A stretch of 33,923 nt of DNA, from assembly GCA_031288735.1 (NCBI GenBank), contig JAITQU010000118.1, forward strand, positions 1 through 33,923, given 5' to 3'. Shown in pieces: positions 4,315-33,923 of this stretch (its first letter is position 1; every line of letters starts with the position of its first letter). Source of the stretch: Christensenellaceae bacterium. GTDB lineage: Bacteria > Bacillota > Clostridia > Christensenellales > DTU072. Position numbers and translations under genes: made by a program. The notes under the pieces are model-generated. The model did no database searches and had not been told where the DNA came from. It saw only the letters and a list, made by a program, of their open reading frames with translations.

Positions 4315-4326
4315 TTTAAGGTAATA

Positions 4327-5655: not shown

Positions 5656-5683
5656 AAAATATTACTAAATAAGGAAAAGCAGT

Positions 5684-6505: not shown

Positions 6506-6516
6506 CAGCCTCAAGT

Positions 6517-6765: not shown

Positions 6766-6794
6766 TTGACAAATTCTACCATAAATAGTAAAAT
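6766..6794 (+). promoter_or_regulatory. Strong promoter for the giant lipoprotein gene
   Basis: TTGACA (6766-6771) and TAAAAT (6789-6794) are separated by exactly 17 bases, one base from a perfect sigma-A consensus pair. The start of transcription would be near 6801. The giant gene therefore probably has its own promoter and is not simply part of the upstream operon. Confidence 0.7.
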
Positions 6795-7043
6795 TATTTT
6801 GACGTATACTAAGTCGCATGTTTTCAAATGGAAAAAATATTTAGTTGCTTAAAGTTTAATGAATTTTGTTGGGCTAGTTATTTCTAAGCATTTGAAATAT
6901 TCATTTAGAAATTATAACATTTTTGAGATTAAGAATTTGGATCGTATTGAGAAAACTCAAACATGTCAAAAAAGATATTAACAGCCATAATATAAATTAT
7001 ACAAACGGCATCTGTATTGTATATTTTAAGGAGTACGAAATAT

Positions 7044-10000
7044 ATGAAAACTCCCAACGTTAAAAAAGTTTTCTTGTTCGTTTTTGCGGCATTATTGTTA
7101 TTGACGCTAATTGCTTGTTCATATCGAGATGAACCAATTTACGATCCTAGTGATGATCTTGTAGAAAACAGCAATTTGGCTGGCAATGGTACGGTTGTTG
7201 AGGAAAAAAGAATTTCCAACGACGTCTACAAGAGTGCCATGGCGCAAGTTTCAGCTAATACCTCTAATATATTTATCGCACCTAGAGATCCTGACTGGTA
7301 TATTATTGATTTAGAAATAGATTACAAATTTACCGATCACATAACAAAGCTTGAACTAGATTATGTGCTGATAATTAAAGCAAATATACATTTAACTGAC
7401 AATACACAGAGTGAACTATTTTTTGTACTCATGGACAGGACCGCATCTAGCAGAGGCGAGTCCGATTTAATTATAGGTGTTTATTATTTTGGTAAAACCT
7501 TATATGTCAACGTTGGTGGGCAAAGATATTATACTGAAGCAATTAACGTAACAGAAGTAGGCAGTCTTTTAGCTGGAACACTGATGTCCGCTGGACTAGA
7601 TATACCAGCACTTTTGATAGCATTATTTAGTGGAGCACCTCTCAATATACCAGGCATAGAGAAATTTGCAACGATTATTACATTAGTTACACAGAACCTT
7701 TATCGATCTACGGGAATAAGAGAGACACACACTACAGGGAGCGGCTTAGATAATATTGATTACACAATAATATTAGAGATTGATAAACTAATAGATTTAG
7801 TACAGCTCGATATGATTTCAAATCTACTTAAATGGGAAACCTTTGGCCTCCCAGATTTGGATCCATTATTGCAATCACTTTTAGGTTTTTCCCTAAATTC
7901 TCTTAAAACACGTGCTTGGCCTAAAATGAGTGGGAGCACTCTGCGGTTCATAACGTCTAAATCTGACAAAATTCCAGCAACAGATGATGCTGGAAATATT
8001 GTATACACGGCATCTGGAGAGGCAGCCTACGTTGAGGGATATTACCTAACTGGTCTTGAACTTGATCTTACAACTATGGCTGAAACCAAATGGCCAGATG
8101 GGCAATATCATCTTAACTTGTTGGTAGCACCATTTTCAATGGGCCCGTCAGATTCAAAATTAGTAATACGTTTTGAAAACACTGGTTTTGGCGCATCAAG
8201 TAAGGACACAGTTCCTGAGGCTGGACTTTTGAATTTGCAAACAGACATAGTCATAGGAATTGACAGTGCACCTAACGGGCAGTTTAAGGTAAAAGATGTA
8301 CTAGGAACTATGCTAGATCTTGATTCTCTAGGAATAGCTGGACTAGGTGAAGTACCGTTAGTTTTCCCAAATACAGGTATCAAATATGATTTCATCATAA
8401 ATTTAAAAATACATATCGATCCGTTTGATTATCGCAACACTCGAATACAAGCAACGATTTATTTTGAGGACGGGTCATCCCCACGGCGAACTTTAGTAAA
8501 AGCATATCTTGAGGCTGATGTGCTGTACCTAGATCTATCTCAAATTGTAACTGCTGATGGTCAGATAATACCCAATATTAAGATTACTGGCTTGAATATA
8601 AATGAGCTTTTATCTAGTATACTAGCATCGATAGACCAATATATAAATCCTAACTATATTCGACCTGATAATGCTCCTAGTAATGCAAGCACTCCTAGAA
8701 ACGCTGAGGCAACGGGTCTCGATATCAATACCATTCTTAATTTAATTTCTTCTAATATTTCCAAGGAAAATAGTTTAATTGCCATTAATTTTGATAATGC
8801 GGCAATTAACACAATATTACATATGTTCCTTTCTGGTGGTGATATTGGCTTACAAGGCTTGAGACTTTCAGTGGACACTTCTGATATTTTAAACTCAATT
8901 AAAATATTAGCTATTGTAAACGATGATGTCAGCGCACGAATTGAGATAAAAGGAATCGAATATTTCAAAATGCCTGATTTTAATAACGTTGAAATAATAA
9001 ATACAGAGGCTAAGCGCAATTCGTTTGTAGATGTCAACAATGTTATTGAAAACCACATCTACGCCGCACAGATAGATGGTCACGCAAGGCTAGGTATTGC
9101 CAAGTCTAATGTTGGGATTGGCCTTGATGGTTTAATGGAATCATTACTAGGGTCAGCCTTTTCTAACATGGGGATAAACATTGATGTTAGTGGGAATGCT
9201 GAGTTTATAGCAAACTATAAGATCACAGCTTCAGTTGATATCTTTAATATGAGTAACACAGGGCTTAGTATCAATTTCTATTTTGATGATGATATAACAA
9301 AGGTGTTCTTATTACTCTATTACGATGCTGGGTCAGATACTATATATGTCGACCTATCGCGTATTGATAGGCTTAAAGAAAAGATGCCAGCTCTAAGCTT
9401 TTTAGGACGATTACCGAGACTGAAAATAGAAAAAGTCGGTATTAGAGCAATCTTAGATGGCATATCATTATTAAATCCATCAAATGCTGAAGGGATTGGA
9501 CAGAATCCATACCTACAAGGGTTACTTATTACCTCCCCAGATATATTCATTACAAACATTGCAAACTCCTTACTACTAGGAAATACTGCAAATGTTCTTT
9601 ACCAGTTAGCTCAAGAGGAGGGCATTTCGGAGGAGCCAACTGAAGGTGGCGGTTTTGATATTGGAAAGCTTCTAGCACTACTTTCACTAAATGTTGATGA
9701 TGCATCTAAAGCACTCATTGTACTTGCTGATAAGCAAATACTCACAGTTCTCCTTGGTATGTTGAATCTAGGTGTAAGTGCACCAGATGTAAAACTTGCA
9801 ATCAAATTACAGCTACTAGATGTCGGAATAGTTGGAGCCGATGATGGAATTGTTAACCTGTATTTTTCAATTTATGATTCAGAAGGTGTAGATATAATCT
9901 ATGCTGATATCGCCTTGATTCACCGCGCTAAAATTATTATAGCTGACCGTTCTCCTCCATTCTTCCTTGATGGAACGGGATTCAACGCAAGTGACTTTGC

Positions 10001-19000: not shown

Positions 19001-22000
19001 ATCTGGACTTTTAAATGGGGTTTCTGTCAAACTCACAGATATTGACCTAGGTGGTATACTAAAGGGCCTTTTAGGTGGACTTTTAGATGGATTAGTGCCT
19101 GGAATACGTGTCGATGAAAATTCCCCAAGCAATGCTGAAAGCACACTAGCAAACAGTATTGATTTAAGAGATTATCCTATTGGCATACCGTTACTACTTT
19201 TAACAGCATCGCGAAAAGAAATGACGCTTGCAATTACAGGTGCATTAGCGTATTCGTTAATTGCTGGAATTGCGGGAATGGAAAATTTCTATCTGCCTGA
19301 TTTTAACAACCTACAAGTAGGCTATGCTGAAAAAGAACTTGACAAAACTGAATATATACAATTTGACTCTAAGCAATTAACGACATGGGATAGTTTAACA
19401 GGACTATTTGTAATGTATTCAAACAATAATGCTGCGCTTGTCATATCTGAGGTAAGTTCTAGCAGTAGTAAAGAGCATTTAACTGTTGAAGGAATTGACC
19501 TTAATGGTAAAGAGCGTACGGTTGAGACGGTAGGATTGCCAGCACTTTGGCCTGCTGAGCTAGATAGATATGGAAGTAGTTTACCTACTCAATACAAAAA
19601 CATGTTCATTTCAGCAGTTTATAGAGTTTTAGACGATGGTTTTGGGCGTAGTGGATACTATGTTATGTATAGAAGAGTGTATGTAGAGGATTATGAAACA
19701 CTCAAAGCTTCACTTGAAAGCACATACCTAACACAAAGTGATGTTATAGCAAAAGACTTAGCTGGCTTAATTTTCAGATTGACAGATGATACACCATATG
19801 AACAAGCTTTCCGTATTGGATTTAACTATCGGGATGGATATTCACATTTTGGTGTTGAGATAAACTCAAAGATTGATATCGGCGCAGATGCCTTATCAAA
19901 ATATGAGGATATTTCAATCCTAGCTAGGATTGGAATATCACTTGATCTTGAAATGCGGCTTAGAACAAAGCGCGCTGATGGTGATAAAACTCCAGAGGTG
20001 GAGGCACTTGAGGCAATACTAGAAACAATGATTGGAATACCAGAGGGCGGAATGAATTTAGATTTCCAAGACTCTACAATGGTATTTGCACTCTCGTTTA
20101 AATTATATCTAAATCTTTCAGACCTTTCTGAAAGTACAATGAAAATTGCAATGTCGTTTAACGATGAACCGTTTATATCCATATATTATCTGGCAGCTGA
20201 TAACACAGTATATCTGGATGCCGAAAAGTTAGGTTTGTTTCGTGCTGCAATAAACGGCATAGATCTTATGAGTATTATAAACGCATTCACGTCAGGGATG
20301 TTTGATAATGGTGGACTAGACATTGGTAGCATTATTGAGGACCTAATACCTTCAAACGCTGAAGGCTATGTTGAGCCTGAGCGCGCAAAAAATGCTTCTG
20401 AGTTATTAGCACCTACAGATGCGCCTCTTGTTAGGATACTTTTAGGCAATGATGAAATCATAATAAATCCAAACATTGGTGTATTTGAAAGTTTAATAAC
20501 AGGTGTAGCACTACCAAATATTAATGATATAAGACTAAGTACAAATATTTCTTATGGATTAAACAACCTAGCTTTGAGAGTAAAACTAGACGGGTTGGGA
20601 AATAATATTTCAATAACAGTACCTCAAGACATGTTCCGTTTAGGAATTGGTATTAGAGATGAAGACCTTGCAGTCTTTAGAACATCAGCTAATGAGGTTC
20701 CAGCATCACAATACGGCGCACTTACTGGTATAAACTTAAACGGGACAACATTCAATGAACTATTGAATGGGGGTGCGCTACCAATCGATATTGGCACACT
20801 AATGAATACTTTGATTGACACCTTAAAGATCAAAGACCTATACATTTATCTTGACAAACGTAGTGATTACTGGTACATGCGTGATCTTAGATATATAATT
20901 AACAGTGGCGGGACGGGCCCAGTTTATCCTGGCTATGCTTATGCTGAAAATGATGTGCGAGCGTATTTAGATCCTGTATATTCATATAGAAAAGGAAATA
21001 CTGGCTTTGAGGTTTCCGATAGTAGAGGAATTTCTCCTGCGGATGTGCTTAACGAGTTAGTTACAGGTCTCCTTGGTACTAATTTGTCAATCGCCTTTGA
21101 TATTGCCGTTGGATTGGGATTTATCAGTGGTGCTGAAATGCCCAAGTTTGTACCATATTTCTTTAATAACCAATACAAGCGCGTGAGAATCAATCTTGGA
21201 AAGACATTACAAAACAGATTAAATATAAAAATAGAGCAACTTACTCAAATTACTACTAGCAGAGAGGAAGGCTTATTTGATGGTTCTAGTAGTGCAGATT
21301 GGTCAACTATGGCAGCAACTGCGTTCATGGGTAGTCATGTTATAAAACTCCTTTTAGGATCAGCATTAAATATTAAACTTGTCAAACTTTTAGAAAAGCT
21401 ATTAGGCGGTACCTTGTCTGGATTATCTGATGAATTAGCTAATTTAGTTAATGCGCTACTTCCAGCTCTATTGGGAATGGGCGGTGACCCACTACCACTA
21501 GGTGGAATAATTGATGGTTTGACTAACGGCATTAAACTAGCGGGGTTATGGAATACACTGCAAGGCTTAATCCCTTCAAGAAACACTGATTTAAATTCTG
21601 AAGAACTTTATGGCTACAATAGTCTTTTTGGAAAAATTACTGATAATAGTGGAAATGGAATTAGTGGGGCAAATGTAACCATAAGCGTTAATGGATCAGA
21701 CACTACTACTTATACAACGTCAACAGATGAATATGGGCGTTATGTTTTAGTTAATATTCCTGTAGGGACACATTTAATTGATGTTACAAAGGATGGCTAT
21801 CATCCACTAAATCTTCCAGGCTTACCTGAAACGAAAAAGCTAGTAACAATAGTTATGTTTATAAAACAGCCAGCAGTGGAGGCAAACTATTCACTTGATG
21901 AAATAAGTCCACTTGTGTTTACGAATGTCACAATTACTGGATCTGTCTTTGTTCCAAATGCTGCAAACACTGACCTTACGGCTGCTAAAGGGAGTGTATC

Positions 22001-25000
22001 GATCGATGCGATAAATAATGCTGGAACTAAAGTTAAAATCACAGCAGACATGTCCGATGGTTTATTTACATTAATAATAAAAGATGGAAACTATTTAGAC
22101 GGCGTAGAGCACACGGTGGATGTTACTGCTTCAAATGGTTCAAATTCATTTACATTAACTCCAGCAACAATTTATGTCTATGAAAGCAATACTACCATTT
22201 CGCCAAACGATTTTCCTGAGCTTAACTTCGTTAGGGATACGACTTCTACTGGGTCCATTTCTGGTAATATAAAAACATATGAGGATGTTGGCTTGATACC
22301 TGATGCAAGTTACTTAGCATTTATGTCTGGGCTTAGCGAAGATAATAGTAAGGAAACTTGGTCACAATTTAATACTGGACTTTCCACACCTTATGACATA
22401 AACTCGTTGCTACCAGGAGTGCTAACGAGTGCACAGCATTATAAAAATACAAAGGGTGTAACATATTTAGAGTTTAGTGACAGTGGTTTGAGTGCATATA
22501 AAACATTCTTAAAGAGTTTAGAGACTAAGTTTAATACTATTAGTCCCATGAACAGCTCGGCAAAATACGATTTTAATCTCTATAAAATAACAACTGTTGT
22601 TAATGGTACCACCCACTACCTTGAATACAATGAATATAATAGCGTATCGAGACAACCATTCATCTATGAGATTCGTAGATATCCAGGAAGTGGCAAAATA
22701 ATAGTTGCATTCAAAAAATCGGAACTTGTACCTGTGACAAGTGACGTTGAACTTTGGCTTATGAGAGATGGGCATACTATTATGACAGCAGATGCTCATA
22801 GTGGCAAGAACTGGAACTTGGATCCAATTACCAATAAAAATCCATATGATCCACAAAATTTCCCTGTATATGCATATAAACTTGAAGAGAATTCGGAAGA
22901 TCTTTTTTACGATGAAAATGGAAACCCTGTTATAGATACAAATTATGATGGATCTCTCAAAGAGGATAATGACAGAATAATTAAAATGTATACTCCAAGA
23001 GATTATATTTCAAACAGTGATGGGGAAGGCAATAGTGCATTTAGCGATGGCAAGTTCACTATATCGAACCTAGAATTAGGTGTTAATTATTCAATAAGAA
23101 TTCGATCTAAGGTTTATGTTAACTATGACTACGCTGAAACAGCAAGTATGTCTAGTCAGCTCATAGATACTTTTATAAATTCTGATATTGTGTTAAAAAA
23201 GAGACCCTCACATTGGACAGAATTAAAAGAAGAGTCATCATCTGGGATGCTACAAGCAGTAAGGATTCGATTAGGAGCTGACAATTTAGATGAAGGAATA
23301 AATGAACCTAGTTCAACCGATCCTGGGTATGCAGATCCTGATTTGATCAATGGCTATCCTTTCCCCTACAGTAACTATCAATGGCTTAGTGCATTAATTA
23401 ATGAGATTGAGGCGGGTTCCACATCCCTTGGAAATTTGTTTGCAAACGGGACGCTTGCAAGAACACTACTCCAAAAAATAATGCCACAGCTCGATATTGA
23501 TGATCCAAATTTTGATTTTTCATCCACTAGTTGGTATGACTTTAAAAACAAGGCAACATATTCACCATTTACAAATTATATTGAAGGATATGCCCAAGGT
23601 GCTTATGATAAGAGCAACAACGTTTCTTATGTTGAGATTTGGCTTGACTCGGAATTTATGGCTTCAATTGTCAATATGATTAGTAACATTGTATTACCAA
23701 TGATAGGGGGCATGGAGACTGTATCTGATTATAGAGTACAACCTATTCATATCATAAAACCACAAGACTCTTTTTCTAATGAAGTGTTACAAGCTAAGGG
23801 TCTAGGTTATAGTGAAATAATCGAGACCATGTTTTACAAAGGTATATTTGACGAATCAAAGAGTGCTCTTATATACAACTATATGTATGAAACGGAGGAT
23901 GATTATAAATTAAACGCTATATCTGCTGGTAACAAAATGCCAGGTGGATTTATTAACTATGTTATTAATATGCTAAAAGACGGTATTCGTGATGGGTCAC
24001 TAGGTGCGATTCCTGTACCCATTATAGATCTTCTTGTTATTGCTGGAACCAACTGGATAGATACACAAATTGACCAATTCTCACGTATGTTCTCGCATGT
24101 TTTACCCCTCGTTAATGGTTATTCCTGGTATGGAGAGCGTAATCTTGATGGAAACATATTGCATGAGACCGCACCTACCACTGAAGGTGGAGAAAATATT
24201 GTTCTTCCTGATGCACTTACAGGGCAGACACTAACAACAAATGTAATAGGATATATCAATGACAAAGGCATATTGCCAGGGGGCGCACGACTCTTAAATG
24301 GATCCACTGTAGCAACTGATCCACAAATGCAAGATGATTATTCATTAGATAACGGTTATATGCGTGAAGTAGAATACCATGACATGTCGGTTTATGCAAA
24401 GGTAACAGTTAACGCAAATGTTAATACTATGTTTGACAGAATTGTGCTATTTGTTAACGGTGCATCCTACGACACAACAAGCTCTGGTAAGCCTGAAAAT
24501 GTCTACGATATTAATACTGGTTGGCGTGCAAATTCTGTTGAGCTTAGAGCTGATCTTGTAAAATTCAACCTTGATGGCTCGCCTGTGCCAGAGGATAAGG
24601 CTAAATATGATATGATTTTGCGTTGGTTAAAATACGATGCGACAAATTCTTATTTAGTCCTAAAAGATTATCAATATGAGACAAGTAGTGATGAGTACGA
24701 AATTCTTACTAAAACCTTAAAATCAATACTCTATGTGCGTGATGTTTATGGATATTATGATGCTAAATATGATGCCAACGGAAATCCAGAATACATTGAC
24801 ACACTAGGTCGAACTCTTTCATATAATAGAGTTGAAAGAAAATTCTATTTTGCTGGTAATTCTGTTTTAAATCCAGGTCCTGTTCAGCCTATATCAGTTG
24901 ATTTTGCAAACAAGACCCTCTCAGAAAATCCACAAAGGCGCATTCTAGAGCAAACGCTTATTAACAATTTATCAGCTAAAGATGACCATTTCATGGAGTT

Positions 25001-28000
25001 AGATATTAACAATTCTGGAATCAAACTTAAACGAGTACAACCCTTAAATCAAAACTCATTCTTTACTGGTGAACAAGCTTGGTGGGATGGTGACAAAGTT
25101 ATTACTACAGTTTTGACTCCACCAGATGAAGTAATATTCCATGATCCATATAATCCTGCGGATTTTACTGCTATCAGAGGCACTTGGGCTGACGGCGGTG
25201 TAAGACATAACCTAGGTAGCAATGGGGAATATAGCGTTTCATCCGTGCTTGACATCTTGCCAACAAGAAATGGTGCAAACTTCTACGATGGGGATTCATC
25301 TGACTCTAATGGTGTTCAGGTTAGCTGGGATATGAGTGAGGTGAAATTCGTATTCTCTGACCATGATGTTGTCTCTTATATAAAAGGTTATTGCGCAAAC
25401 GAGACTTATGGCATGCTAAATGATGGCACTGTTACTAAGATTAAGGCAACCGTGGAGAGCAGTAGACGGACAATAGATCCCGAAAAGCCTATGATAACTC
25501 TAGATGAGACGGGACTAAATCCTGTAGTCTCAAATCAAAATATAACACTTACACAAAAACTATTAACTTTCGATAATTACATTGTAACCGAAAGTAAACT
25601 CCCTCATCTTATAGCACTAGGCTATGTTGATGTAAATGCACAAGCAGGTGATGTTATAAAACTTGATCTGAGAACGATTGATCCTACAAGGTTTGATATG
25701 GGGGATTATTTAGCGCTCCTACCTCAAGAATTTAGCTACGTGTTCTCTGATTCATTTATCAATCCTTGGACAGGCGTATATCAAGCATTTGAAGCTCAAG
25801 TAGGTAACAGTGGTGAAAGTGTCGAAGTAGATAGTAGGACAACTACCTATAACCGACTTATATTTAATAAGCTAAGCTGGAGCTTTGATGGTAGTGACTT
25901 AAACTATAGTGGTGGCACTACATCGCTTAGACTTGACTATACTATTAAAGGTTTCGTTGGAGGGGATAAACTTACAAACACGATCCGTATACCTATAAAT
26001 GTTTTAGACAGAAGGATCGTATCAGAAAATGTTTCTTCTACCGTTAGTTACCAAGGTGCGGAGCTTAAAATCGAAGGCGGCGAACTTGTATTTGATTCGA
26101 CAAGATTTTCAAATCCACTTGATGGGGCAAAAGCGTTTAGAAAGTTAAATGTAAGCTATCCTAATTTAGATCAAGACCTATCTAGTTTTGAATGGACTAT
26201 TAAGTTTGTCAACGCAAGCGAACTTCTAGAATTTGATCCTCAGTCGGTGTATGATCCACTTAAGGCTGATCAAAGTTATAATGTATATTATACAGTAGAG
26301 GATGATTTTGGTGGGTTGCAACAGATCAAGATAGTGTTTAGAGTAATGTCAAGACTCTTCTCTGAAACAACAGTTCAGCTTGAGCAAGTTGCAAATGGTG
26401 GTTACTATGATGAGTACATCCCATTTACAAACGATACATTTGCAATGCCATCACAGGTGACAGCATATTATCTTAATACTGAGCTTGGCAATACCTCATT
26501 GACTTCTTCAAATTATGAAATCAATCTTAGTGAGCTTGATATTGCCTATGATATTACCTATGATGCAAACGACCCGTCAATTGGCATAAACGAAAAAGGT
26601 GTTTATAAGGATTATGTAGCACCTATGAATATTTTAGAAGCTGATTTAGAGTCTTCTTCTGGCTACAAGATAATACAAACACTAGACGTGGTTTATAGAG
26701 TATATAGACGAGTCCCGGTCGATGCTAAATATGTTATTTTGCATCCATATTCAAACAATGCCTTATATGCAGAGCAGACTATTATGTTTGATAATGGTGT
26801 GGGAATCACTGAGATTTCATACTATTTAAGCGATGGTAGAACCCCAATCAGAAACCAGGTTGAACTTACAGAAAGCATATTTTCCTATAAATTAAATACA
26901 GGAAGCTACATCGATAATCCATTCATAGCAACTAACAATCCTAATCCTTCTGATGATGAAACTGAAGTTTCTGACTTAGTTGGATATATAGGGATGAATG
27001 AGATAGATAGTAATAGTTATTATAAGAGGGTTGTCTTTATTGATCCTTCATTTAACGATAGATCCATGTATTTCTTCAGTGTAATGCTAAGCGATGAAAA
27101 TGCAAAAAGTGCTATAATTGAAAATGTAATGCTAGAAATTGTTGTTACAGAGGTAGCTAATATAGTACTACCTGCCGATATCAAAGTTAATCAGTATTTA
27201 GCTGATGGAGATAGCACACAAAATGGTAGTATTTGGGCGTTACTAGAAGATCCTAGAGTTGGTGTAAGTGTTTATAAACAAAATATTGGCACTATAAATG
27301 CAAAATATTATAAAATTGAAGAGTGGTACTATGGCGATGTTGATGTTAATCAACCAAAGGATGTCTGTGATGCTAGGCAAAAATTATCTAATGGACTAAG
27401 CATTAACGGAGAAGGACTCGATTACATATTTGTTAAAATCACAGGAGCAAATGAAAAGTGGTATAACTGGATTCGAGTTGATTTAGATGCTCATCTAGAA
27501 GATTTGACAATCTTAGGCTTTGAAGAAGCACCTAATTTTGAGTATCAATTAGATCCATTAAACGGACAACTACCATCAAGTTTAACTGCGATTTATCGAA
27601 GTAATTCGACACAGTCAATAAAATTAATACCAGTTAAGTTCATCTTTGACGAGGAAGAATTATTTGCTCACGACCGCGTTAGCGGACAAATTATACCGAT
27701 CAGTCGCAATGTATTAGCAAGCGGAATTAATGTTACCTTTGTTAATTCTTCAAGTGTAGGTGTTGCCAAAATTGATTACTATATCGATCATGATGGAAAT
27801 TCATCTACTTCGCTTACGACGATTGATATTGATGGGTATCAGATTAAGTCATTTGACAAGTTTAGTGAAGTTTTACCAATAGTGGCTGACGTTACATTCA
27901 CAACACCTATCAGCTATGCTGGGGGTAGTGTAACTAGTAAAAAGTTTAATATTTACTATTCTAGTGTTGAATTTTATGACTTAGAAAATGAAATAGTAGC

Positions 28001-31000
28001 AGATATAAACGCTTTCTACACTTCAATTAGTAAAATTTCAATAGTCGCAAAGATAGGAGATCCAACGTTTGGCTATATTACAAAGACACTTAATATAAAA
28101 GTAGTAAATGAATACATTGAATATCTAAACTATGAAAACGATGATGGGACTAAGGTAAAGGATTTAAGAGATGGCGTTATTGCTACTAATGATTTCATAG
28201 ATGCCATTAATCCATATGCGTCTATAGATAATCAGCTAATGGAGGCGATATTTGGAATAGGGTATCGCAATATAACTATCAAGACTAACCTTAGAACAAT
28301 AACCTATGGAGATATACTATTACCAGATTTATTAGTTAACAAAACGTTTGCTGATGTTATTCAAGGAATCGTCTACGAGTCTGGAGAAAAACGGTTTGGG
28401 ATTGGTATTACACAGCACCTTAATATATTAAATCCAATAACTGGTGTAGGTAAAGGGCTCAAAATAGAGGCACGTCAAAATTTCGACTCTAAGATTTCAC
28501 TTGATCCTAGTCTTGCTGTTAGCATTAACAACAAGCCCATAGGCAATGTGTATGAAAGAATTAATTTTTCAAACATTAACACTGTATCGGTACTATTTAG
28601 AAATGGACGAGTTTTGGAGAATGCTAATGTAATTAGATGGGAAAATTTAGATAACATTCGCTATAACTATTCAGGCGGTATCTTTACTGTAAATGCTATA
28701 ATCGGTAACGATGTCTATGAGGAATTTGAGCAAACTGTGCCTGTAAGCATCTGGATCAAGCCTGCTGTACTAGACTACTTAGAGGTGCCAGGAGGTGCCG
28801 TATCTACACTTCTTGTAAAAGATAGTATTACTAATAAGTTAACAGGACTTCATATTGATCCATTAGAAGGATTCCCAATGGAAATCTACGATGAGGCTAA
28901 CGGACTACCTAGTCAGCTGATTGCGCATTTCAAGGGTACCGAGACTAACCCTATATTAGTCAAAGTAAGCTGGAATCCTTCTAGAACATGGAATGTACTT
29001 AGTCTAACAGACCCCATATTTAGTTTTAATGCTAATGATAATTCTGCTACTGTAGTTACCATCTATGATGAATATGAGGACGAAAATGGTGTTATTTACA
29101 GAACCGCTGAGCAATCTATTGAACTCTCAGTAACTGCTGATAACAGAACAATACAAGCTTTCCAGGGCATTTATAAAATAGATGGAAAAGCAAACACTCA
29201 AAATATTTCATTTGAAAAAGGCATTGATGACAGCATTAGAGGGGAACTTGTTTTGCCAGCATTCAATCCTTACTTGGCATCGTATAGTGAAGATTTCACA
29301 AGTGAGAGTTTCCATTACTTCAAGCAAATCCTAATATCTACCGCATCGGGGAGCGAGATTGTTGATTTAGATGAAACTAACTATAAAATATACGACGCTA
29401 GAACAGGATATCCTACAAATCTAACGGATCTATATACAGGGAGAACAGTAACTATCGAGGTTTCCTTCCTAATGGGAAGCGGAAATAGATATGTTCCTAA
29501 GGATGCAAGGGTTGTCTTAGTTTTCACCTTAGAAATACTCAACATGACCTATCTTGCAGGATTTGATTTGCAGGTAATTGATCCATACGGAATTGATCCA
29601 AGTTACTATACAACAGCTCAAGGCAGTGGTGAAACAACCTCCAATAGCATTTCAACAGTATCATTAGACGCTGGTGTTTATACCTTTGATGTGTCATATG
29701 ATCGTAGTGATATTGGTAATAAGTTTGTAGGTGATAACAAATCAGGTGCTATTGATTACACTGGTGGTATGTCGAGACTTTATGCTATTATAGGCAATAC
29801 GCTCGGTGGTAAGCAACGCATTATAATTCCACTTCGTTATATTGATAGAACTATTTCATCACTTTTTGATTTTGATCCGCAAACTGGATCGGATGAATCG
29901 AATGGTTACTATACAATAGACGAAAATGGCAATGAAACATTTATCTTTGATCCATTCAAACCCTACGATGTTAGTTTATACCCTAGCAATGCGACCGCAA
30001 GATTTACACAACCGCTTAATATTGACACTCCAGTTATTCTATCATATCAATACGGAGGCACAGTGTCACCAATTAAGGTTTCTTGGGATGATGGAAAAAC
30101 AAGAATGACCTATAGGGGCGGGGCTGGCTATGAGGTAGTTGCCACTGTCACCTCTTCAAATGGAAGCTTTACTCAAGAAGTTGTATATAATGTTAAGGTT
30201 TTAAACAGGACAATCACCTCTGATTTCAAGGAAATTTTTATTGACGCTGGATATGCATCTGGTGCAAAGAAGATATCTCCCTATGATTTTATAAACGATG
30301 GTGACTTGACTAGTGCAGTAGTTGCTAGGATAATAAAAAATGATAATCCAGATGTGCGTCTAGAATTTGTTGAAGGCGAGCCATTATTGTTTAAGCTCGG
30401 GTTAACTGCAGACTATATATCAGCAATAGAGAGTGGTTATGCTTACAAAGACCATTTATCAAATCTTGACAAGGAACTTGCAATGGTCTTCAAACTAGAC
30501 ATTTCGCGTTCTCTAACATACAAAGGTGCCGATGTGAGATTTGTTATGACGGTTCCTGGATTTGCTATGGGCACGGGCGGTAGACAAATAGCAACGACCG
30601 TGGTGTTTTCCGAGGAGCAGTACATTAAAGGTATATATGCCTATGTAACAAATGAGACTTCCTCCCAATATGGAAATTATCTAAGTTATCTTGACTGGCT
30701 CAGTGAAGAATATGGTATAGACGAAAACAATATTACCCCTGATGATACAGTAGATAATTTGTTCGCATTTAGAATACAAAATCCATATTTCTTTATCAAG
30801 AGAAAGGGAATTCCATTACCTGATAAGGTAAAATTATTTGTAGGTGGAATGTATAACGAATTTAGCACAAGTCTTAAGACGTATGAAGGTGTTGACTTGT
30901 TCTGGTCGTCGGCTGTTAACAACATTGGAAATATCTATTACAATAGAGAGAAGTTAATTACAAGCTTCCAAATCGATATGGATTACCAGAGTTTCTCCTT

Positions 31001-32462
31001 TGAATTTAGAGTAACACCGTGGTTTATTGAAGATGATGGGATATTCAAAGAGGAAGGCAACTATTATTCAGAAGAACAAATCATACTCCTTCCATATCAA
31101 AGAAGCGGAATGACAATATCACCAATTATCCAATTAGCCGCTGGTAGTAACGGCATTGCAAATGCTAAGTACACAATTCAATTTAAAAAGGGTGATGGTT
31201 CAATTGGAATCGAAATCTTTGATAACATAACTGGTGGCGGTAGTTACTATAACAGCTACAACAAGTGGAGTTTCGATGAGGTAGTATTCTCCTCTACTGA
31301 GCTTCAATATGCGGTACTGACACTAGGAGGTAAGGGTGGACAACAGGTAAAATGGTGGTTTGCCACAGACACTAATCCTTGGATAAACCAAAATATTCCA
31401 AAGTTTATAGCACAGACGGCAGGGAGTTCATATAGTTTACCAACCTATGTTGAGCAGATGTTTGCTAATGGTAAAAAAAGTGATCGTATTCCTATAACGT
31501 ATAAGAGCATAACAAACAGCGCATCAAGTGATGGTGATTTAATTGGTAATTCCAACGAAGCGGCGGATATGGGAACTCTTACTAATATTTACCAGTCTGG
31601 ACAAACAACAATAAATTTCAGAAATTATATAACTCCAGCTTCACGTGTAACTAAGCTTGGGTCTTATAGCTATAGTCAATCTGATATGGGGTATGTTGAA
31701 TGGGAGTCTAGCGCATCCCGTGCGTATCCTAGCACCTATGGTAATGCTGGTGATAGAATTTACTTTGTATCCTATGCATCGACTAACGTCACTTATAGTG
31801 CAGCAAGCGGGAATCAAAATCAGAATGTTACAGAAATTAACGATACGAAAAAGAGCGTAATCCATAATCCCGATAGTGCATTTGGATATATTCTATTTAG
31901 GCCGAATGCGTCAGAATCTGTACTGAACTATACAAACTTACCAAAAACAGGAGAGCCTCTTGATAGCACCACCCAAATGCTCCCAGCAAATGCTTCTAAG
32001 ATCAATCTTGAATCAAAAATGACATACACTGGAAATGTGGTGAAAACCCAAAACTCTGCAGTTATTATAGAACTAGCAAAAAACACAAAATTCAGTGTTG
32101 CCTTACTACCATTGATATCAGTTACATTCCTCATACCGCAGCACGGATATAACGAAGCTGGTATGTTGGGTGGTATAGTAGGAAATGTAGTAAGCATCGA
32201 AAGGGTCCAAGCTGATTTAATTTATGCTATACCGTGGCAGAATGCTAATGTTTACATGACATCAATTAGAGGTGGTGGATGGTCGTTTAATCCTAGGATA
32301 GGACCTTCTAACTTCGGAGCATTGCAAAATGGTGGTGTTTCAGCTATTGACACCTCAAAGGTAGGGACGAGATACACATTAGTTTGCCAAATGCCACCCT
32401 TCACGGCAAACAATGAACTGTCTACTATTGTTGTTGTGATTGATATTGTCAATCCTAAATAA
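7044..32462 (+). CDS. Giant (8,472-residue) repeat-rich surface lipoprotein
   Basis: This single open frame encodes a protein of roughly 0.9 MDa. I chose ATG 7044 because AAGGAG (7028-7033) precedes it; an in-frame TTG at 7017 lacks support. Residues 1-25 are a textbook lipoprotein signal peptide (TLIA-Cys25), so the N-terminus is membrane-anchored. Order of regions: ~26-4860, a tandem array of hydrophobic beta/alpha units with a ~280-residue period; 1230-1241, an EF-hand-like loop; ~3435-3471, an acidic linker; 4861-4942, a carboxypeptidase-regulatory-like domain; ~4943-6170, mixed modules; ~6170-8472, Ig-like repeats with a [DN]R[TR]I signature. The C-terminus ends VDIVNPK, with no LPXTG, no membrane segment and no recognisable wall-binding domain. 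Only about six cysteines occur beyond the lipobox, as expected for an exported Gram-positive protein. The whole is not a family I recognise. Adhesin, scaffold or lipid-handling roles are all open. Confidence 0.9.
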   Translation: MKTPNVKKVFLFVFAALLLLTLIACSYRDEPIYDPSDDLVENSNLAGNGTVVEEKRISNDVYKSAMAQVSANTSNIFIAPRDPDWYIIDLEIDYKFTDHITKLELDYVLIIKANIHLTDNTQSELFFVLMDRTASSRGESDLIIGVYYFGKTLYVNVGGQRYYTEAINVTEVGSLLAGTLMSAGLDIPALLIALFSGAPLNIPGIEKFATIITLVTQNLYRSTGIRETHTTGSGLDNIDYTIILEIDKLIDLVQLDMISNLLKWETFGLPDLDPLLQSLLGFSLNSLKTRAWPKMSGSTLRFITSKSDKIPATDDAGNIVYTASGEAAYVEGYYLTGLELDLTTMAETKWPDGQYHLNLLVAPFSMGPSDSKLVIRFENTGFGASSKDTVPEAGLLNLQTDIVIGIDSAPNGQFKVKDVLGTMLDLDSLGIAGLGEVPLVFPNTGIKYDFIINLKIHIDPFDYRNTRIQATIYFEDGSSPRRTLVKAYLEADVLYLDLSQIVTADGQIIPNIKITGLNINELLSSILASIDQYINPNYIRPDNAPSNASTPRNAEATGLDINTILNLISSNISKENSLIAINFDNAAINTILHMFLSGGDIGLQGLRLSVDTSDILNSIKILAIVNDDVSARIEIKGIEYFKMPDFNNVEIINTEAKRNSFVDVNNVIENHIYAAQIDGHARLGIAKSNVGIGLDGLMESLLGSAFSNMGINIDVSGNAEFIANYKITASVDIFNMSNTGLSINFYFDDDITKVFLLLYYDAGSDTIYVDLSRIDRLKEKMPALSFLGRLPRLKIEKVGIRAILDGISLLNPSNAEGIGQNPYLQGLLITSPDIFITNIANSLLLGNTANVLYQLAQEEGISEEPTEGGGFDIGKLLALLSLNVDDASKALIVLADKQILTVLLGMLNLGVSAPDVKLAIKLQLLDVGIVGADDGIVNLYFSIYDSEGVDIIYADIALIHRAKIIIADRSPPFFLDGTGFNASDFAEINKFLETMTIGLSLNGNFRMVKQEDKFTVGWINDLIAGILNGIAIEFDLSSFDVNVSYSLSINLALSDILSIVNGNIPTKLLTELSLVVVDNTINRTMIGIYLIDNVIYLELDYFGVNNIAIKDVSLLINQIANLINGLSINGNRELPLPIPANDEEESGQGANGIRAINIILAPERVSILISEIFVGALIQMLLGTELPMALRDLSLIIYFEENLAVDLNVTIEVLEITFAVYDVVLIIKYDANGDGKIDQEDNKGSDGKIDETAGLLPVISLPDKAFHTTDTGGMPSTIKISLQASIFLTANPDYGPSGETLNKILDLTPALSALLNSTGIDLNTYIQFLGINEGRINIYLEASIDINKLVSGDILTGISAWLRITTGENADEKQILNAIYARGDLFLETDVFGIGKLHIKNVSEFFGSLLGGASNSEGALRNLSSEESIQNQLMLSQYVSIMLIPGGLTMDLTRGMLLAVFNALGLDLTQMLDGILELNLHLDLSAVPLDLNLGINADGVIAGIRLFGLNIRLDETFHIPDVNDADYDYVALENLEYLDLTIEGQLDFGIYGSESGTDFDFVVQEIYDALMEAGISGGDTFDLDVLLNIGILLKIVSEKFGGTIHYSINVILNPLNISDLYLAIRLTSEDVYNASDSSAYGNILSMFLIANGNGGLDLYLDGEGLFGGTGLKIEKIRITDLVGFIGGFSGATTLGTSGLPSNAVGDVLLYNAIDIANAHILVSIALNSPTAAAPIVIAVTKGAFEALFGLLGIPLTDFLGEYAPNAKLEIGGEVNFLDLSFDISSPTEKFIKLGLTMKSPKIGIYDKNGSALGMYNAVIADQASYYLINSTDKLNLKLTIGGEFVFDSKDNVTTPDNQIDLTKILQQFLKETDLGAILANAGYVNKRITYDIQISVDAMSAISGGLDGLISGMSALIILTLHHSSIDQADDPTISLYLNGGNLYADLSKINIGKIRIDNVFTVLGLSGNESQTVSALRGSLGNAGIYSAPEILAHLILTLGNDRGIALGLGSDLFQVVLNALAIPGIDVGLLGDFVVDELLNGDLNVDFEIDLANAASISISASNSYELALKINKLLLDFRAYAPSGEMTANFNPMDYYPLAFDSLLIHAEINLDFGWTLEDGTTFVLDDLLSTILPNGIDIGGKKLGISAALAILGTLGSDFRAKISANINLARILDASLPVEQKFIGTDIIIELFCLSSDTPNDILLGVYYIYNTETGGNDLYLDAECFNIQRVKISNVIDFGVNFVNTLLGLFSSPSDDETPLDPASNAYDPNIAAAWINMQLSQQGFLIHIGSAALFTALSTILTTFDVGSYINPLGDVQIDLAMLSPEDVLRLDLRLHAYKEDRIGDPVKYVGVNLALSNSYLVDFNAQNHKPIVPGIERYYSLNEKLPTLSFETKVVFEAKATDHTFDNLNKEPLSSLISNLLQGLAGTTDPVILDYMTRLIIELYFDISDDVEGKFEAEIRVNIELTNIRAMQMQLILRRISGDSADRVLQLNLFQGDIYVDLTPLGGPMFIIIDVMAVLLGEKEWDMGDITPASNLEMPKNAEDDGITYLDLKAEITTDGLFIAAYKATFDTLVTLLGMSGIEIFDQMKLSIYAKGYGDNSFSLGLGVEVGTNEESNLISAGVHIDGLRINFEPFNEQELITPLNTKYIEAYKVNTISASATFEIGFAGYDGDIELSNVYRAITAIEPGLAMVLPKVLDIDSFGDSLIFEISAILNIADLSEIQNGLQVRGKIYLKNDYESGKQPLIDITYYGNPYWSFGNTLYIDATNVGLGKIKIDDFSGVIGFFTSGASELSPPTDNDGFQLGDELNNLSARIDEIEEMIEEAGVATAEQLNTLALCRIMVSLSLENGLLLSIGKDMLFMLLTVLGMDIMKYIDGVVYPAIDIGITPELDLGLRIAINGLLKDELTNKSGGVELYLNLFTSKTRADIKNEIFFATPVGVYSNIEPLISEAERREYVNYNKLPLFTELNISLSVDLDDGRVAAGNSISAIFALLGLDAELQTDISFSGSERLQIDISAELGINMSQLMSLNRESASKAITGRIILSYGIYDRANPNWASEHSMFSQNVIEIYFLNDVVYVKALIMDSEIKVKLSDLEISKLLTDLLNATGPADDGPQNAVSEVSKNMGYLLNLDGNQTGFETFEAVIRLNSQAFSLIITSELLSAVLSALGGVLGSPVSEIPFDTIFDEIVDGASLGVYYGEEDEEGRLKTFSIRFNIFKEQNHYHEVGGINLPAAGYDITLSLLHDSLISVRQSRYDDFYSEIYELSNDEDDAFIDYYNLSISNFNILDFTLSVSVDIVLGWEFKQLILDWSELFALELDETTAFFIQILDDMKGDITLRLATVVSLGSIAELKLDVSAELIDSEGNIGLQLFFLNFTDTSGSDIEGINPSIYVRIPSMDTGFVLTSDTLVEFLGINILALFDTTPSNDDPNAGEVVDDEDDETNPEGPEVIGGGSTDEAWWATLLESIVIVKGQIVVVVSNAIIQTLLNQLFGFPFDEIGRVALSIDFIGNTLRLDLSLDNQLNMDETQYSFGVIAKDMTYEGTTLIERIDGKAIPVEVLNAARRGIVASYSLNYAQTNGVMVISQSDLISFYGILSTLREDNRYVLSTEQVEIRSKDKNRSLIDSYTINYFKFTGLDASFMGAITYFPNSNYVQLVVLNISEIDPASLPVLSANVLSIGILSRAEKISEDWITGSGAFNEYIAEIDDVITPPQGDGLTQIDAYKYFDTVLNQQVAYIIYKVADESTRDDDIFSYATRIQAYEYDLIGEGGIYTLTKHVTTNIRENGKLYATKHDVMVKLIPIGKDMFAVAIINISNMFNVYLAITNLNLSIAREDIILNKFKDRAIADDYFRKFSPLQEFKWDFEVYFELTIDDSLGGLFDLSPLTSSIFNMLNTSENSLLQALSAINIALQPSEEINIVIGIRLAMFIDFSKLENIRLQIELTYNGRSLALITFVGGLTSDRVTSNVVYLDLSGLLNGVSVKLTDIDLGGILKGLLGGLLDGLVPGIRVDENSPSNAESTLANSIDLRDYPIGIPLLLLTASRKEMTLAITGALAYSLIAGIAGMENFYLPDFNNLQVGYAEKELDKTEYIQFDSKQLTTWDSLTGLFVMYSNNNAALVISEVSSSSSKEHLTVEGIDLNGKERTVETVGLPALWPAELDRYGSSLPTQYKNMFISAVYRVLDDGFGRSGYYVMYRRVYVEDYETLKASLESTYLTQSDVIAKDLAGLIFRLTDDTPYEQAFRIGFNYRDGYSHFGVEINSKIDIGADALSKYEDISILARIGISLDLEMRLRTKRADGDKTPEVEALEAILETMIGIPEGGMNLDFQDSTMVFALSFKLYLNLSDLSESTMKIAMSFNDEPFISIYYLAADNTVYLDAEKLGLFRAAINGIDLMSIINAFTSGMFDNGGLDIGSIIEDLIPSNAEGYVEPERAKNASELLAPTDAPLVRILLGNDEIIINPNIGVFESLITGVALPNINDIRLSTNISYGLNNLALRVKLDGLGNNISITVPQDMFRLGIGIRDEDLAVFRTSANEVPASQYGALTGINLNGTTFNELLNGGALPIDIGTLMNTLIDTLKIKDLYIYLDKRSDYWYMRDLRYIINSGGTGPVYPGYAYAENDVRAYLDPVYSYRKGNTGFEVSDSRGISPADVLNELVTGLLGTNLSIAFDIAVGLGFISGAEMPKFVPYFFNNQYKRVRINLGKTLQNRLNIKIEQLTQITTSREEGLFDGSSSADWSTMAATAFMGSHVIKLLLGSALNIKLVKLLEKLLGGTLSGLSDELANLVNALLPALLGMGGDPLPLGGIIDGLTNGIKLAGLWNTLQGLIPSRNTDLNSEELYGYNSLFGKITDNSGNGISGANVTISVNGSDTTTYTTSTDEYGRYVLVNIPVGTHLIDVTKDGYHPLNLPGLPETKKLVTIVMFIKQPAVEANYSLDEISPLVFTNVTITGSVFVPNAANTDLTAAKGSVSIDAINNAGTKVKITADMSDGLFTLIIKDGNYLDGVEHTVDVTASNGSNSFTLTPATIYVYESNTTISPNDFPELNFVRDTTSTGSISGNIKTYEDVGLIPDASYLAFMSGLSEDNSKETWSQFNTGLSTPYDINSLLPGVLTSAQHYKNTKGVTYLEFSDSGLSAYKTFLKSLETKFNTISPMNSSAKYDFNLYKITTVVNGTTHYLEYNEYNSVSRQPFIYEIRRYPGSGKIIVAFKKSELVPVTSDVELWLMRDGHTIMTADAHSGKNWNLDPITNKNPYDPQNFPVYAYKLEENSEDLFYDENGNPVIDTNYDGSLKEDNDRIIKMYTPRDYISNSDGEGNSAFSDGKFTISNLELGVNYSIRIRSKVYVNYDYAETASMSSQLIDTFINSDIVLKKRPSHWTELKEESSSGMLQAVRIRLGADNLDEGINEPSSTDPGYADPDLINGYPFPYSNYQWLSALINEIEAGSTSLGNLFANGTLARTLLQKIMPQLDIDDPNFDFSSTSWYDFKNKATYSPFTNYIEGYAQGAYDKSNNVSYVEIWLDSEFMASIVNMISNIVLPMIGGMETVSDYRVQPIHIIKPQDSFSNEVLQAKGLGYSEIIETMFYKGIFDESKSALIYNYMYETEDDYKLNAISAGNKMPGGFINYVINMLKDGIRDGSLGAIPVPIIDLLVIAGTNWIDTQIDQFSRMFSHVLPLVNGYSWYGERNLDGNILHETAPTTEGGENIVLPDALTGQTLTTNVIGYINDKGILPGGARLLNGSTVATDPQMQDDYSLDNGYMREVEYHDMSVYAKVTVNANVNTMFDRIVLFVNGASYDTTSSGKPENVYDINTGWRANSVELRADLVKFNLDGSPVPEDKAKYDMILRWLKYDATNSYLVLKDYQYETSSDEYEILTKTLKSILYVRDVYGYYDAKYDANGNPEYIDTLGRTLSYNRVERKFYFAGNSVLNPGPVQPISVDFANKTLSENPQRRILEQTLINNLSAKDDHFMELDINNSGIKLKRVQPLNQNSFFTGEQAWWDGDKVITTVLTPPDEVIFHDPYNPADFTAIRGTWADGGVRHNLGSNGEYSVSSVLDILPTRNGANFYDGDSSDSNGVQVSWDMSEVKFVFSDHDVVSYIKGYCANETYGMLNDGTVTKIKATVESSRRTIDPEKPMITLDETGLNPVVSNQNITLTQKLLTFDNYIVTESKLPHLIALGYVDVNAQAGDVIKLDLRTIDPTRFDMGDYLALLPQEFSYVFSDSFINPWTGVYQAFEAQVGNSGESVEVDSRTTTYNRLIFNKLSWSFDGSDLNYSGGTTSLRLDYTIKGFVGGDKLTNTIRIPINVLDRRIVSENVSSTVSYQGAELKIEGGELVFDSTRFSNPLDGAKAFRKLNVSYPNLDQDLSSFEWTIKFVNASELLEFDPQSVYDPLKADQSYNVYYTVEDDFGGLQQIKIVFRVMSRLFSETTVQLEQVANGGYYDEYIPFTNDTFAMPSQVTAYYLNTELGNTSLTSSNYEINLSELDIAYDITYDANDPSIGINEKGVYKDYVAPMNILEADLESSSGYKIIQTLDVVYRVYRRVPVDAKYVILHPYSNNALYAEQTIMFDNGVGITEISYYLSDGRTPIRNQVELTESIFSYKLNTGSYIDNPFIATNNPNPSDDETEVSDLVGYIGMNEIDSNSYYKRVVFIDPSFNDRSMYFFSVMLSDENAKSAIIENVMLEIVVTEVANIVLPADIKVNQYLADGDSTQNGSIWALLEDPRVGVSVYKQNIGTINAKYYKIEEWYYGDVDVNQPKDVCDARQKLSNGLSINGEGLDYIFVKITGANEKWYNWIRVDLDAHLEDLTILGFEEAPNFEYQLDPLNGQLPSSLTAIYRSNSTQSIKLIPVKFIFDEEELFAHDRVSGQIIPISRNVLASGINVTFVNSSSVGVAKIDYYIDHDGNSSTSLTTIDIDGYQIKSFDKFSEVLPIVADVTFTTPISYAGGSVTSKKFNIYYSSVEFYDLENEIVADINAFYTSISKISIVAKIGDPTFGYITKTLNIKVVNEYIEYLNYENDDGTKVKDLRDGVIATNDFIDAINPYASIDNQLMEAIFGIGYRNITIKTNLRTITYGDILLPDLLVNKTFADVIQGIVYESGEKRFGIGITQHLNILNPITGVGKGLKIEARQNFDSKISLDPSLAVSINNKPIGNVYERINFSNINTVSVLFRNGRVLENANVIRWENLDNIRYNYSGGIFTVNAIIGNDVYEEFEQTVPVSIWIKPAVLDYLEVPGGAVSTLLVKDSITNKLTGLHIDPLEGFPMEIYDEANGLPSQLIAHFKGTETNPILVKVSWNPSRTWNVLSLTDPIFSFNANDNSATVVTIYDEYEDENGVIYRTAEQSIELSVTADNRTIQAFQGIYKIDGKANTQNISFEKGIDDSIRGELVLPAFNPYLASYSEDFTSESFHYFKQILISTASGSEIVDLDETNYKIYDARTGYPTNLTDLYTGRTVTIEVSFLMGSGNRYVPKDARVVLVFTLEILNMTYLAGFDLQVIDPYGIDPSYYTTAQGSGETTSNSISTVSLDAGVYTFDVSYDRSDIGNKFVGDNKSGAIDYTGGMSRLYAIIGNTLGGKQRIIIPLRYIDRTISSLFDFDPQTGSDESNGYYTIDENGNETFIFDPFKPYDVSLYPSNATARFTQPLNIDTPVILSYQYGGTVSPIKVSWDDGKTRMTYRGGAGYEVVATVTSSNGSFTQEVVYNVKVLNRTITSDFKEIFIDAGYASGAKKISPYDFINDGDLTSAVVARIIKNDNPDVRLEFVEGEPLLFKLGLTADYISAIESGYAYKDHLSNLDKELAMVFKLDISRSLTYKGADVRFVMTVPGFAMGTGGRQIATTVVFSEEQYIKGIYAYVTNETSSQYGNYLSYLDWLSEEYGIDENNITPDDTVDNLFAFRIQNPYFFIKRKGIPLPDKVKLFVGGMYNEFSTSLKTYEGVDLFWSSAVNNIGNIYYNREKLITSFQIDMDYQSFSFEFRVTPWFIEDDGIFKEEGNYYSEEQIILLPYQRSGMTISPIIQLAAGSNGIANAKYTIQFKKGDGSIGIEIFDNITGGGSYYNSYNKWSFDEVVFSSTELQYAVLTLGGKGGQQVKWWFATDTNPWINQNIPKFIAQTAGSSYSLPTYVEQMFANGKKSDRIPITYKSITNSASSDGDLIGNSNEAADMGTLTNIYQSGQTTINFRNYITPASRVTKLGSYSYSQSDMGYVEWESSASRAYPSTYGNAGDRIYFVSYASTNVTYSAASGNQNQNVTEINDTKKSVIHNPDSAFGYILFRPNASESVLNYTNLPKTGEPLDSTTQMLPANASKINLESKMTYTGNVVKTQNSAVIIELAKNTKFSVALLPLISVTFLIPQHGYNEAGMLGGIVGNVVSIERVQADLIYAIPWQNANVYMTSIRGGGWSFNPRIGPSNFGALQNGGVSAIDTSKVGTRYTLVCQMPPFTANNELSTIVVVIDIVNPK
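7119..21600 (+). repeat. Coded tandem array of ~280-residue beta/alpha units with PSNAE linkers
   Basis: Residues ~26-4853 of the giant lipoprotein are about 14-15 diverged copies of one unit. A unit ends with a '[LIV]Y-x-D-[LA]' strand, a '(K/R)-I-x-[DN]-[IV]' strand and a hydrophobic helix rich in Leu, Gly and Ile. The motif aromatic falls at 154, 495, 768, 953, 1096, 1386 (Phe), 1659, 1944, 2225, 2507, 2772, 3089, 3404, 3983 and 4390. A linker of type PSNAE follows 33-50 residues later at 545, 812, 1700, 2268, 2540, 3126, 4028 and 4436, with ASNSE at 1413. The copies differ strongly in sequence, so the array is old and maintained. The strand-rich, hydrophobic pattern faintly recalls LolA/LppX-type lipid carriers, but I cannot assign a family. 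Confidence 0.8.
10731..10766 (+). other. EF-hand-like calcium loop within the giant lipoprotein
   Basis: Residues 1230-1241 read DANGDGKIDQED, matching the 12-residue EF-hand/dockerin loop, with Asp, Asn, Asp, Gly, Ile and Asp at positions 1, 3, 5, 6, 8 and 9. A shorter partial copy (SDGKIDE) follows within ten residues. It lies between two strands of one array unit, so it looks inserted. Calcium binding is predicted from family knowledge and not shown. Confidence 0.6.
21624..21869 (+). other. Carboxypeptidase-regulatory-like domain in the giant lipoprotein
   Basis: Residues 4861-4942 have the typical pattern of this beta-sandwich: FGKITDNSGNGISGANVTI, then TTSTDEYGRYVLVNIPVGTH and a final TKDGY segment. 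It sits where the hydrophobic array ends and the Ig-rich half begins, so it may act as a rigid spacer. A second, interrupted copy seems to start at GSISGNI (5070) and end at DGKFTISNLELG (5335). Confidence 0.7.
25560..32459 (+). repeat. Coded Ig-like repeats with [DN]R[TR]I signature in the C-terminal half
   Basis: Residues ~6170-8472 of the giant lipoprotein hold diverged Ig-like repeats. A unit typically has a Trp/Tyr-Ser-Gly-Gly strand, an 'IG' strand, then 'V-x-[DN]-R-[TR]-I'. Clear signatures are at 6322 (DRRI), 7366 (DNRTI), 7601 (DRTI) and 7721 (NRTI). The last two are 120 residues apart, and 7366 to 7601 is 235, about twice that. Surface proteins often use such arrays as stalks or binding modules. 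Unit borders are only approximate. Confidence 0.55.
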
Positions 32463-32656: not shown

Positions 32657-32715
32657 TATTATATTAATTTAGTAGTTAATTGATAAAAATGATCGTTTTT
32701 AATGAGAACCAAATA

Positions 32716-33923
32716 ATGGAATTAGACAGTGAATATCACAATATAAAAAAAGTTGATTCTTCTATAAGAGAGTGCAAGCTCTCTATTATCGATCCAAATG
32801 GCTGTTACTCGATAATGTCATCGAAGTAACGGGATTTGCGAAAGCAAGCATTGCGCATTGGACTACTGTTACAGACAAGGTGGGTTAGACAATACGGTCT
32901 CATTATGCTACTAATCACCGACACTTATTGAGAAGAAGAGACCTGTTTGAACGAACTAATGAGAGATGCTACAGAATGATAATTCGTAAGAATAGCAGAA
33001 ATACAGCAAGCATTCGAGGAAATGTCTGGAGTCAAATACAAATCATCAAGCTTCTATAAGTTGCTAAAACGTCATGATTGGCTAAAGTGATGCCTATAGG
33101 AAAACATCCTAAAAAGGCAAGCGAGGAGGCCTCAAAAAAATTAAAACAAAAAAAAGAAGAAAAAAAGCAGGTACGCCTCTTTTTTGGAAGCTGAAAAAAA
33201 AGAAGCCCTTATATCTTGTAAAAAGCGAATTTTGACAAATTTTATATTGCGTTGACGAATATGAAAAAAAAGAAAAAAGTTATCCACATTCCAGAAGCGG
33301 TTGACAAAAAAATAACAGAAAATATCGCACCAGTAGAGACCTTCAAGCCAAAAAAGATAGTGCTTTAGCAAAGAAAAAACCGAAAGAAAGGAAAGCACAC
33401 GGGCGAAAAGTTCGACTTTTTTTCAAGATGAGGCTAGTTTTGGTCGTATATCTGTGTTAAGTAGTTGGTGTAAAAAGGGACATAGACCCGCCGTTTGCAA
33501 GAGCGAATACAAAATTCTGAGATGTTTTTGCCGCTATAGAAGCTTGCGAGAGCTTTTATCTAGAGCATAATGGACAAAAGCAGTCAGCGAAAAAACAAGA
33601 ACGGGAAGTTTGGAATAATCGAAAGGCGCAAAATGCCAAGATGAATGAATTTAAAAAAACTCAGTGAACGATACAAAAACGATCATATTGTATTAGTTTG
33701 TGATAATGCATGGTGGCACAAAGAAAATATACTAAAATTTCTAGATGTGTAGTAGTATATATTCGCTACAACGACAGAAATGAACCCAATAGAACAGTAT
33801 GGATAGAAATTCGAAAAGATTAGCTAACCGTTCCATCCTGGCATCGAAACGTTGCTAGCAGAATTACGCAAAGTAATTGATGGCATTCCAGAGATGTATT
33901 TGCATCCATTACTCAACGCAATT
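32716..33923 (+). pseudogene. Decayed IS630-like transposase, cut by the window edge
   Basis: Pieces of one transposase are readable on the + strand in shifting frames. The helix-turn-helix part appears at 32790-32912 (LLLDNVIEVTGFAKASIAHW, then a shift into YRQGGLDNTV). A lysine-rich linker follows. The catalytic part begins FQDEASFGRISVLSSWCKKG at 33421, continues after a shift as DVFAAIEACESFYLEH, then HIVLVCDNAWWHK and finally MNPIEQ near 33780. The presumed DDE residues are still encoded at 33427, 33702 and 33792. At least five frameshifts or stops break the frame, so no active enzyme can be made. The motif order matches IS630-type transposases (Tc1/mariner-like). I cannot place the inverted repeats, and the right end lies outside the window. 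Confidence 0.8.

Follow-up and report, generated by a model that had tools for sequence, protein, structure and literature searches.

Known proteins of the LolA, LolB, RseB and LppX type have one domain and are found in diderms or mycobacteria. Bridge-like lipid transfer proteins (AsmA/TamB, VPS13) are long chains of amphipathic beta repeats. Most of the huge proteins of bacteria are NRPS/PKS or serve in surface attachment (PMC11573180). In the host-associated Bacillota Apilactobacillus kunkeei, Giant1-5 are secreted surface proteins of 3,000-8,000 aa with an N-terminal beta-solenoid, kept in a gene cluster (PMC12863079). Giant ORFs were also reported in Omnitrophota, including one of 39,678 aa in Velamenicoccus; they have few annotated domains and a proposed cell-surface role, are mostly poorly conserved, and the one in Velamenicoccus has 42 transmembrane helices (PMC10066038).

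Giant surface proteins as a kind are thus already known. The giant lipoprotein reported here shares with the Omnitrophota giants a very long frame and few domains, but it is colinear across genera and has one lipid anchor; compared with the Apilactobacillus giants, it presents a lipid anchor and repeats of ~285 aa in place of the N-terminal beta-solenoid. It appears to form a new family of giant surface proteins, new in its architecture and in its conservation across an order, and searches of a set of published papers without preprints returned no description of it.

The giant gene and its neighbours

The window, i.e., the whole stretch of 33,923 nucleotides that was analysed, corresponds to the entire contig JAITQU010000118.1 of a 2.57-Mb, 264-contig, 85% complete MAG. 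Its features are as follows.

246..3326, + strand: secreted protein, transglutaminase-like, that includes a Big_2-like stretch and carries a lipobox-like signal of its own
3448..6505, + strand: DUF4380-like (below cut-off), ROK-family and PIG-L (deacetylase) genes
6766..6794, + strand: promoter-like site TTGACA-17-TAAAAT, 11/12 consensus positions (consensus match only)
7028..7033, + strand: Shine-Dalgarno AAGGAG, ten bases 5' of the ATG
7044..32462, + strand: giant lipoprotein gene, ATG at 7044, stop at 32462, 8,472 aa, no internal stop
7044..7118, + strand: predicted signal peptide (aa 1-24), ending LIA-C25, and lipobox Cys25
7248..20501, + strand: array of 14-15 divergent ~285-aa repeats, tentatively LolA-like (aa 69-4486)
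21624..21815, + strand: CarboxypepD_reg domain (aa 4861-4924, PF13620, E 2.5e-12)
22521..25268, + strand: conserved block, fold without assignment (aa 5160-6075, 38 invariant columns in 23 homologues)
25872..30590, + strand: weak repeats of a second family (HHalign probability up to 88%), aa ~6277-7849
30591..32459, + strand: C-terminal region with a conserved TLGGKGGQ motif
32680..33923, + strand: decayed IS630-like transposase (HTH_33 E 2e-6, DDE_3 weak), in pieces to the contig end

The original prediction described an intact 25-kb frame with a promoter, a ribosome binding site and a lipobox, and all of these were seen again. The 8,472 codons bear one codon signature throughout: GC at the three codon positions stays at 0.43-0.52, 0.32-0.43 and 0.26-0.32 along the whole frame, a pattern identical end to end to that of the neighbouring genes, and the five alternative readings of this DNA contain 315-1,085 stops each. 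Since stops fill the other readings and the GC pattern is uniform, the frame is coding throughout.

From its lipobox signal peptide, the product is predicted to be a lipoprotein acylated on Cys25, one of only 7 cysteines among 8,472 residues. A lipobox was present in every complete N-terminus read among the survey loci, across families. Anchoring by sortase was rejected: the sole LPKTG lies at aa 8299 and is followed by no membrane span, there is no C-terminal sortase signal, and the C-terminus is neither hydrophobic nor provided with a membrane span.

The genes upstream of the giant gene are recognisable by eye beside it in several other genera of the family, and in the family denoted f3 it is adjoined by GH20, PIG-L and HGSNAT genes (L116 and L126 being among the loci with amino-sugar genes). 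In sister genera, a gene for a ~2,000-aa Peptidase_M6/RCC1/Big protein directly follows the giant gene (83 bp away in G001). The giant protein could accordingly be an accessory of envelope stress or amino-sugar metabolism, a scaffold gathering secreted enzymes (the M6-like peptidase, the transglutaminase-like protein) or glycans at the cell surface, as the recurrence of PIG-L, ROK, GH20, HGSNAT and M6-peptidase genes beside it in several genera and in f3 would suggest. We consider this improbable: the link to amino-sugar enzymes is loose because genus g8 of the same family lacks those neighbours, and a domain search of the giant protein found no dockerin, cohesin or carbohydrate-binding domain.

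In the window itself, the place of the M6-peptidase/RCC1 gene is occupied by the IS630-like element, whose pieces are spread over several frames, in agreement with the decay first ascribed to the neighbouring transposase. The homologue of the M6/RCC1 gene in the window's genome is located on another contig (G000:C21:3380-9457, 45% identity). In G001 (L022:6108-12275), the gene product is secreted, measures ~2,056 aa and combines Peptidase_M6-like, RCC1 and Big_2/Big_3 parts. The giant gene of families f17 and f8 is followed within ~110-140 bp by another gene for a giant secreted protein, of 6,373, 6,394 or at least 5,401 aa (L120, L121 and L144 in G049; L145-L147 in G103; L118, L119 and L143 in G040); the only Pfam match among these proteins was a weak MBG_2, in one of them. 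Two adjacent lipoproteins of ~345 aa, which look alike at their N-terminus, lie two genes behind the shortest homologue, in f6 (G240 L141:1276-3474); they were discarded as relatives of the repeats, having no significant HMM or HMM-HMM match to them.

Conservation of the giant gene within one order

The N-terminal 1,000 aa have homologues in 29 of 33 relatives of the same GTDB family, and a central block has them in 32 of 40 family genomes, covering all 11 sampled genera. Queries of genome contigs with the plain protein gave no match and those with an alignment gave 27 loci. Full-length alignment showed homology that is colinear from the first to the last residue, with identities mostly of 20-60%. 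Frames of the family, complete or cut by contig ends, measure 6.4-13.6 kaa, several of them within contigs of 262-313 kb. The relatives that bear names are uncultured Clostridia MAGs filed as Christensenellaceae, Christensenella sp., Clostridia or Eubacteriales bacteria, among them Ca. Stercoripulliclostridium merdipullorum, and the record titles of several mention goat, sheep or roe deer gut.

Selection on the frame, initially proposed from the contrast with the broken transposase, is borne out by these colinear frames and by a dN/dS of 0.11 between G020 and G007, the one close pair for which it was computed (0.04-0.18 in each block of ~1,000 aa). An artefact, whether a misassembly that joined several genes or a frame in decay, is very improbable and was rejected for the family. 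The MAG is indeed made of 264 contigs and 85% complete, and 2 of 18 same-family loci read hold a broken giant gene: a frameshift splits that of G005 into 1,846 and 6,732 aa (L055-L056), and that of G033 is interrupted after ~8,093 codons in a fetched region holding 90 N (L051-L052), which may represent sequencing errors or real decay. Against this stand the uniform codon signature, the purifying selection and the colinear frames of 8-13.6 kaa that MAGs of independent assembly carry, some of them inside the 262-313 kb contigs. The giant gene is thus no chimera of the assembly and is not peculiar to one strain; it occurs in several families of the order.

The wider distribution was surveyed with a three-repeat profile, then with profile A4, built from single repeats of several families. 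Of the 337 genomes sampled from the order, A4 matched 93 (E <= 1e-5), and these fall in six families: the window's family (22), f3 (21), f6 (23), f17 (19), f14 (6, where matches are weak) and f8 (2). When 391 genomes sampled from the class and 299 from the phylum were scanned, every match to the repeat profile came from this order. In f3, f8 and f17, the frames read are 7.3-10.5 kaa long; they have a lipobox and as many as 23 repeat matches, of which some are very weak. One genome placed in f17 (G300) resembles the window's family and is possibly misplaced, given this resemblance and its fragmented MAG (650 contigs, 5% contaminated). In f6, the two frames read encode 3,156 aa with 6 repeats and 2,405 aa with 3 repeats.

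Two expectations of the original prediction thus need amendment. Lipid-anchored giants of this size were called rare, but within the protein's own clade they are not rare. The findings that were to refute the prediction were for the most part not obtained; homologues occurring as separate shorter genes, which would have spoken against a single giant gene, were encountered in one other family, f6, where a frame of 2.4-3.2 kaa has a separate second gene behind it.

Anatomy of the protein and candidate fold of its repeats

The ~285-aa repeats were found by HMM-HMM self-comparison and an iterated repeat HMM. Aligned across families, the units share only ~14% mean column identity and are separated by low-complexity PSNAEG-like linkers. 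Leucine and isoleucine make up 24% of the repeats, compared with 16% of the C-terminal part; the majority of the strands predicted in the repeats are amphipathic. Copy number is near-constant, with 13-17 matches in complete members of the family, and the additional size of the longest members comes from insertions between repeats of up to ~2,400 aa. Genus g8 reaches 11.3-13.6 kaa through such large insertions (G027 L032-L034, G014 L037-L039, G024 L041-L043), e.g., at aa ~4270-6670 of G027; the insert scanned had no Pfam match.

Searches by segment against profile and structure databases, as had been advised, left the repeats without a sequence match in Pfam, NCBIfam or the PDB; for Pfam and the PDB this also applied to homologues and to the repeat consensus, and no LolA-type entry was matched. 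The view that no named family fits the full protein was upheld, CarboxypepD_reg being the sole confident domain (47.4 bits vs. a curated cut-off of 32.3, only at aa 4861-4924). The conserved block at aa 5160-6075 had no consistent Pfam match and no PDB sequence match, and its model (pLDDT 62) gave no convincing fold match. The repeats at aa ~6277-7849 look weakly Ig-like, as judged by eye only.

This anatomy could be that of a giant adhesin or surface fibre. The ~285-aa modules would then be a structural stalk only, and the block, the Ig-like part and the C-terminal part would bind, as other giant surface proteins of bacteria do. In adhesins, the units of a stalk are usually of Ig type and near-identical; those of the present protein have diverged strongly, are rich in Leu and Ile, and resemble LolA-type folds most. 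Moreover, their number hardly varies within the family. The stalk is nonetheless a serious candidate, held somewhat short of an even chance, as Ig-like and CarboxypepD_reg parts are present, the longest members differ through insertions, and giant proteins known from bacteria often serve to attach the cell surface (PMC11573180, PMC12863079).

Three repeats (aa 2002-2834) were modelled with AlphaFold from 20 alignment rows, with a mean pLDDT of 56 and a pTM of 0.43. Foldseek gave no reliable match for this model, and no viral structure matched it at E <= 0.001, so a viral origin was set aside. With VIA-align, LolA, LolB, RseB/MucB, DUF1329 and EPDR1 lead almost without exception, at Z 6-8.3 and rmsd 6-8 A for a model of pLDDT 56. 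Any single Z (near 8, rmsd 6-8 A) is within the range of common or chance arrangements, and the LolA-like reading is therefore based on the uniformity of the structural list. We regard a LolA-like fold as likely but unproven. LppX_LprAFG (PF07161) was rejected as a relative by sequence, with one marginal genome among 291 in the class and none at the giant locus.

The likeness to LolA, LolB, RseB and LppX thus consists of the best structural matches of a low-confidence model, of Leu/Ile-rich amphipathic strands with helices, and of predicted secretion; the giant protein differs in having 14-15 modules per chain, a host without detectable Omp85, and no sequence similarity found. From such a fold, the binding of hydrophobic ligands would follow, and the repeats may handle lipids.

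The array, more than 4,000 aa of amphipathic beta repeats in tandem and rich in Leu and Ile, also recalls AsmA and VPS13, and the repeats might form one continuous hydrophobic groove through which lipids flow outward from the membrane. We think this improbable, because the structural matches are LolA-type single domains (albeit for a low-confidence model), the linkers separate the units, and a second membrane is not evident. AsmA-type entries are absent among the VIA-align matches listed, although with so poor a model this absence is not informative.

Place in the envelope and possible role

Omp85 was found in none of 8 genomes, while the same search gave a match in 7 of 14 control genomes. 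LspA was detected in 7 of the 8, the exception being the window's own 85% complete MAG. The host thus seems, from its gene content, to have a single membrane. With Omp85 undetected and LspA common, the anchor is most likely in a single cytoplasmic membrane, with thousands of residues outside.

The reading that we prefer, tentatively and at somewhat less than even confidence, is a lipid-anchored surface fibre whose proximal half consists of hydrophobic-groove modules and whose distal half contacts a target. One secreted protein would be lipidated on Cys25 and its N-terminus held in the membrane. The 14-15 tandem LolA-like beta/alpha modules would form a long chain into and through the cell wall, each offering a groove lined by Leu and Ile for a hydrophobic ligand (a lipid, an acyl chain or another greasy molecule), so that the proximal half would carry or buffer such ligands. 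The chain would continue with CarboxypepD_reg, the conserved block, the Ig-like repeats and the C-terminal domain, the outermost part touching a substrate or a cell. Export, wall crossing, hydrophobic-ligand binding and outward orientation are what we infer for this giant protein. By our estimate, ~14 modules of 4-5 nm and the Ig-like part would extend over more than 100 nm, which exceeds a Gram-positive wall.

Two further points count against the preferred fibre with ligand-binding modules: it would be unusual to find LolA modules arranged in tandem, and a stalk role requires no ligand. The simple stalk of an adhesin comes close to this reading in likelihood, and a continuous lipid bridge is less likely. 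A more specific version would be a novel type of envelope machine, in which a membrane-tethered chain of 14 or more LolA-like modules, peculiar to the order, passes lipids or other hydrophobic cargo from one module to the next across the monoderm wall to serve the distal domains at the cell surface; it is unlikely, though less so than the bridge.

The giant lipoprotein is a trait that several families in one order of uncultured gut Clostridia have in common, and it provides a testable case of lipid-binding-type modules arranged in tandem in a bacterium without detectable outer membrane. It indicates that giant genes can be stable, selected and colinear across a whole family, rather than strain-specific oddities. 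One conserved giant protein, of which a single small domain belongs to a named family, takes ~1% of the 2.57-Mb genome of the window, and in the largest relative 40.8 kb of a 2.4-Mb genome are devoted to this single gene.
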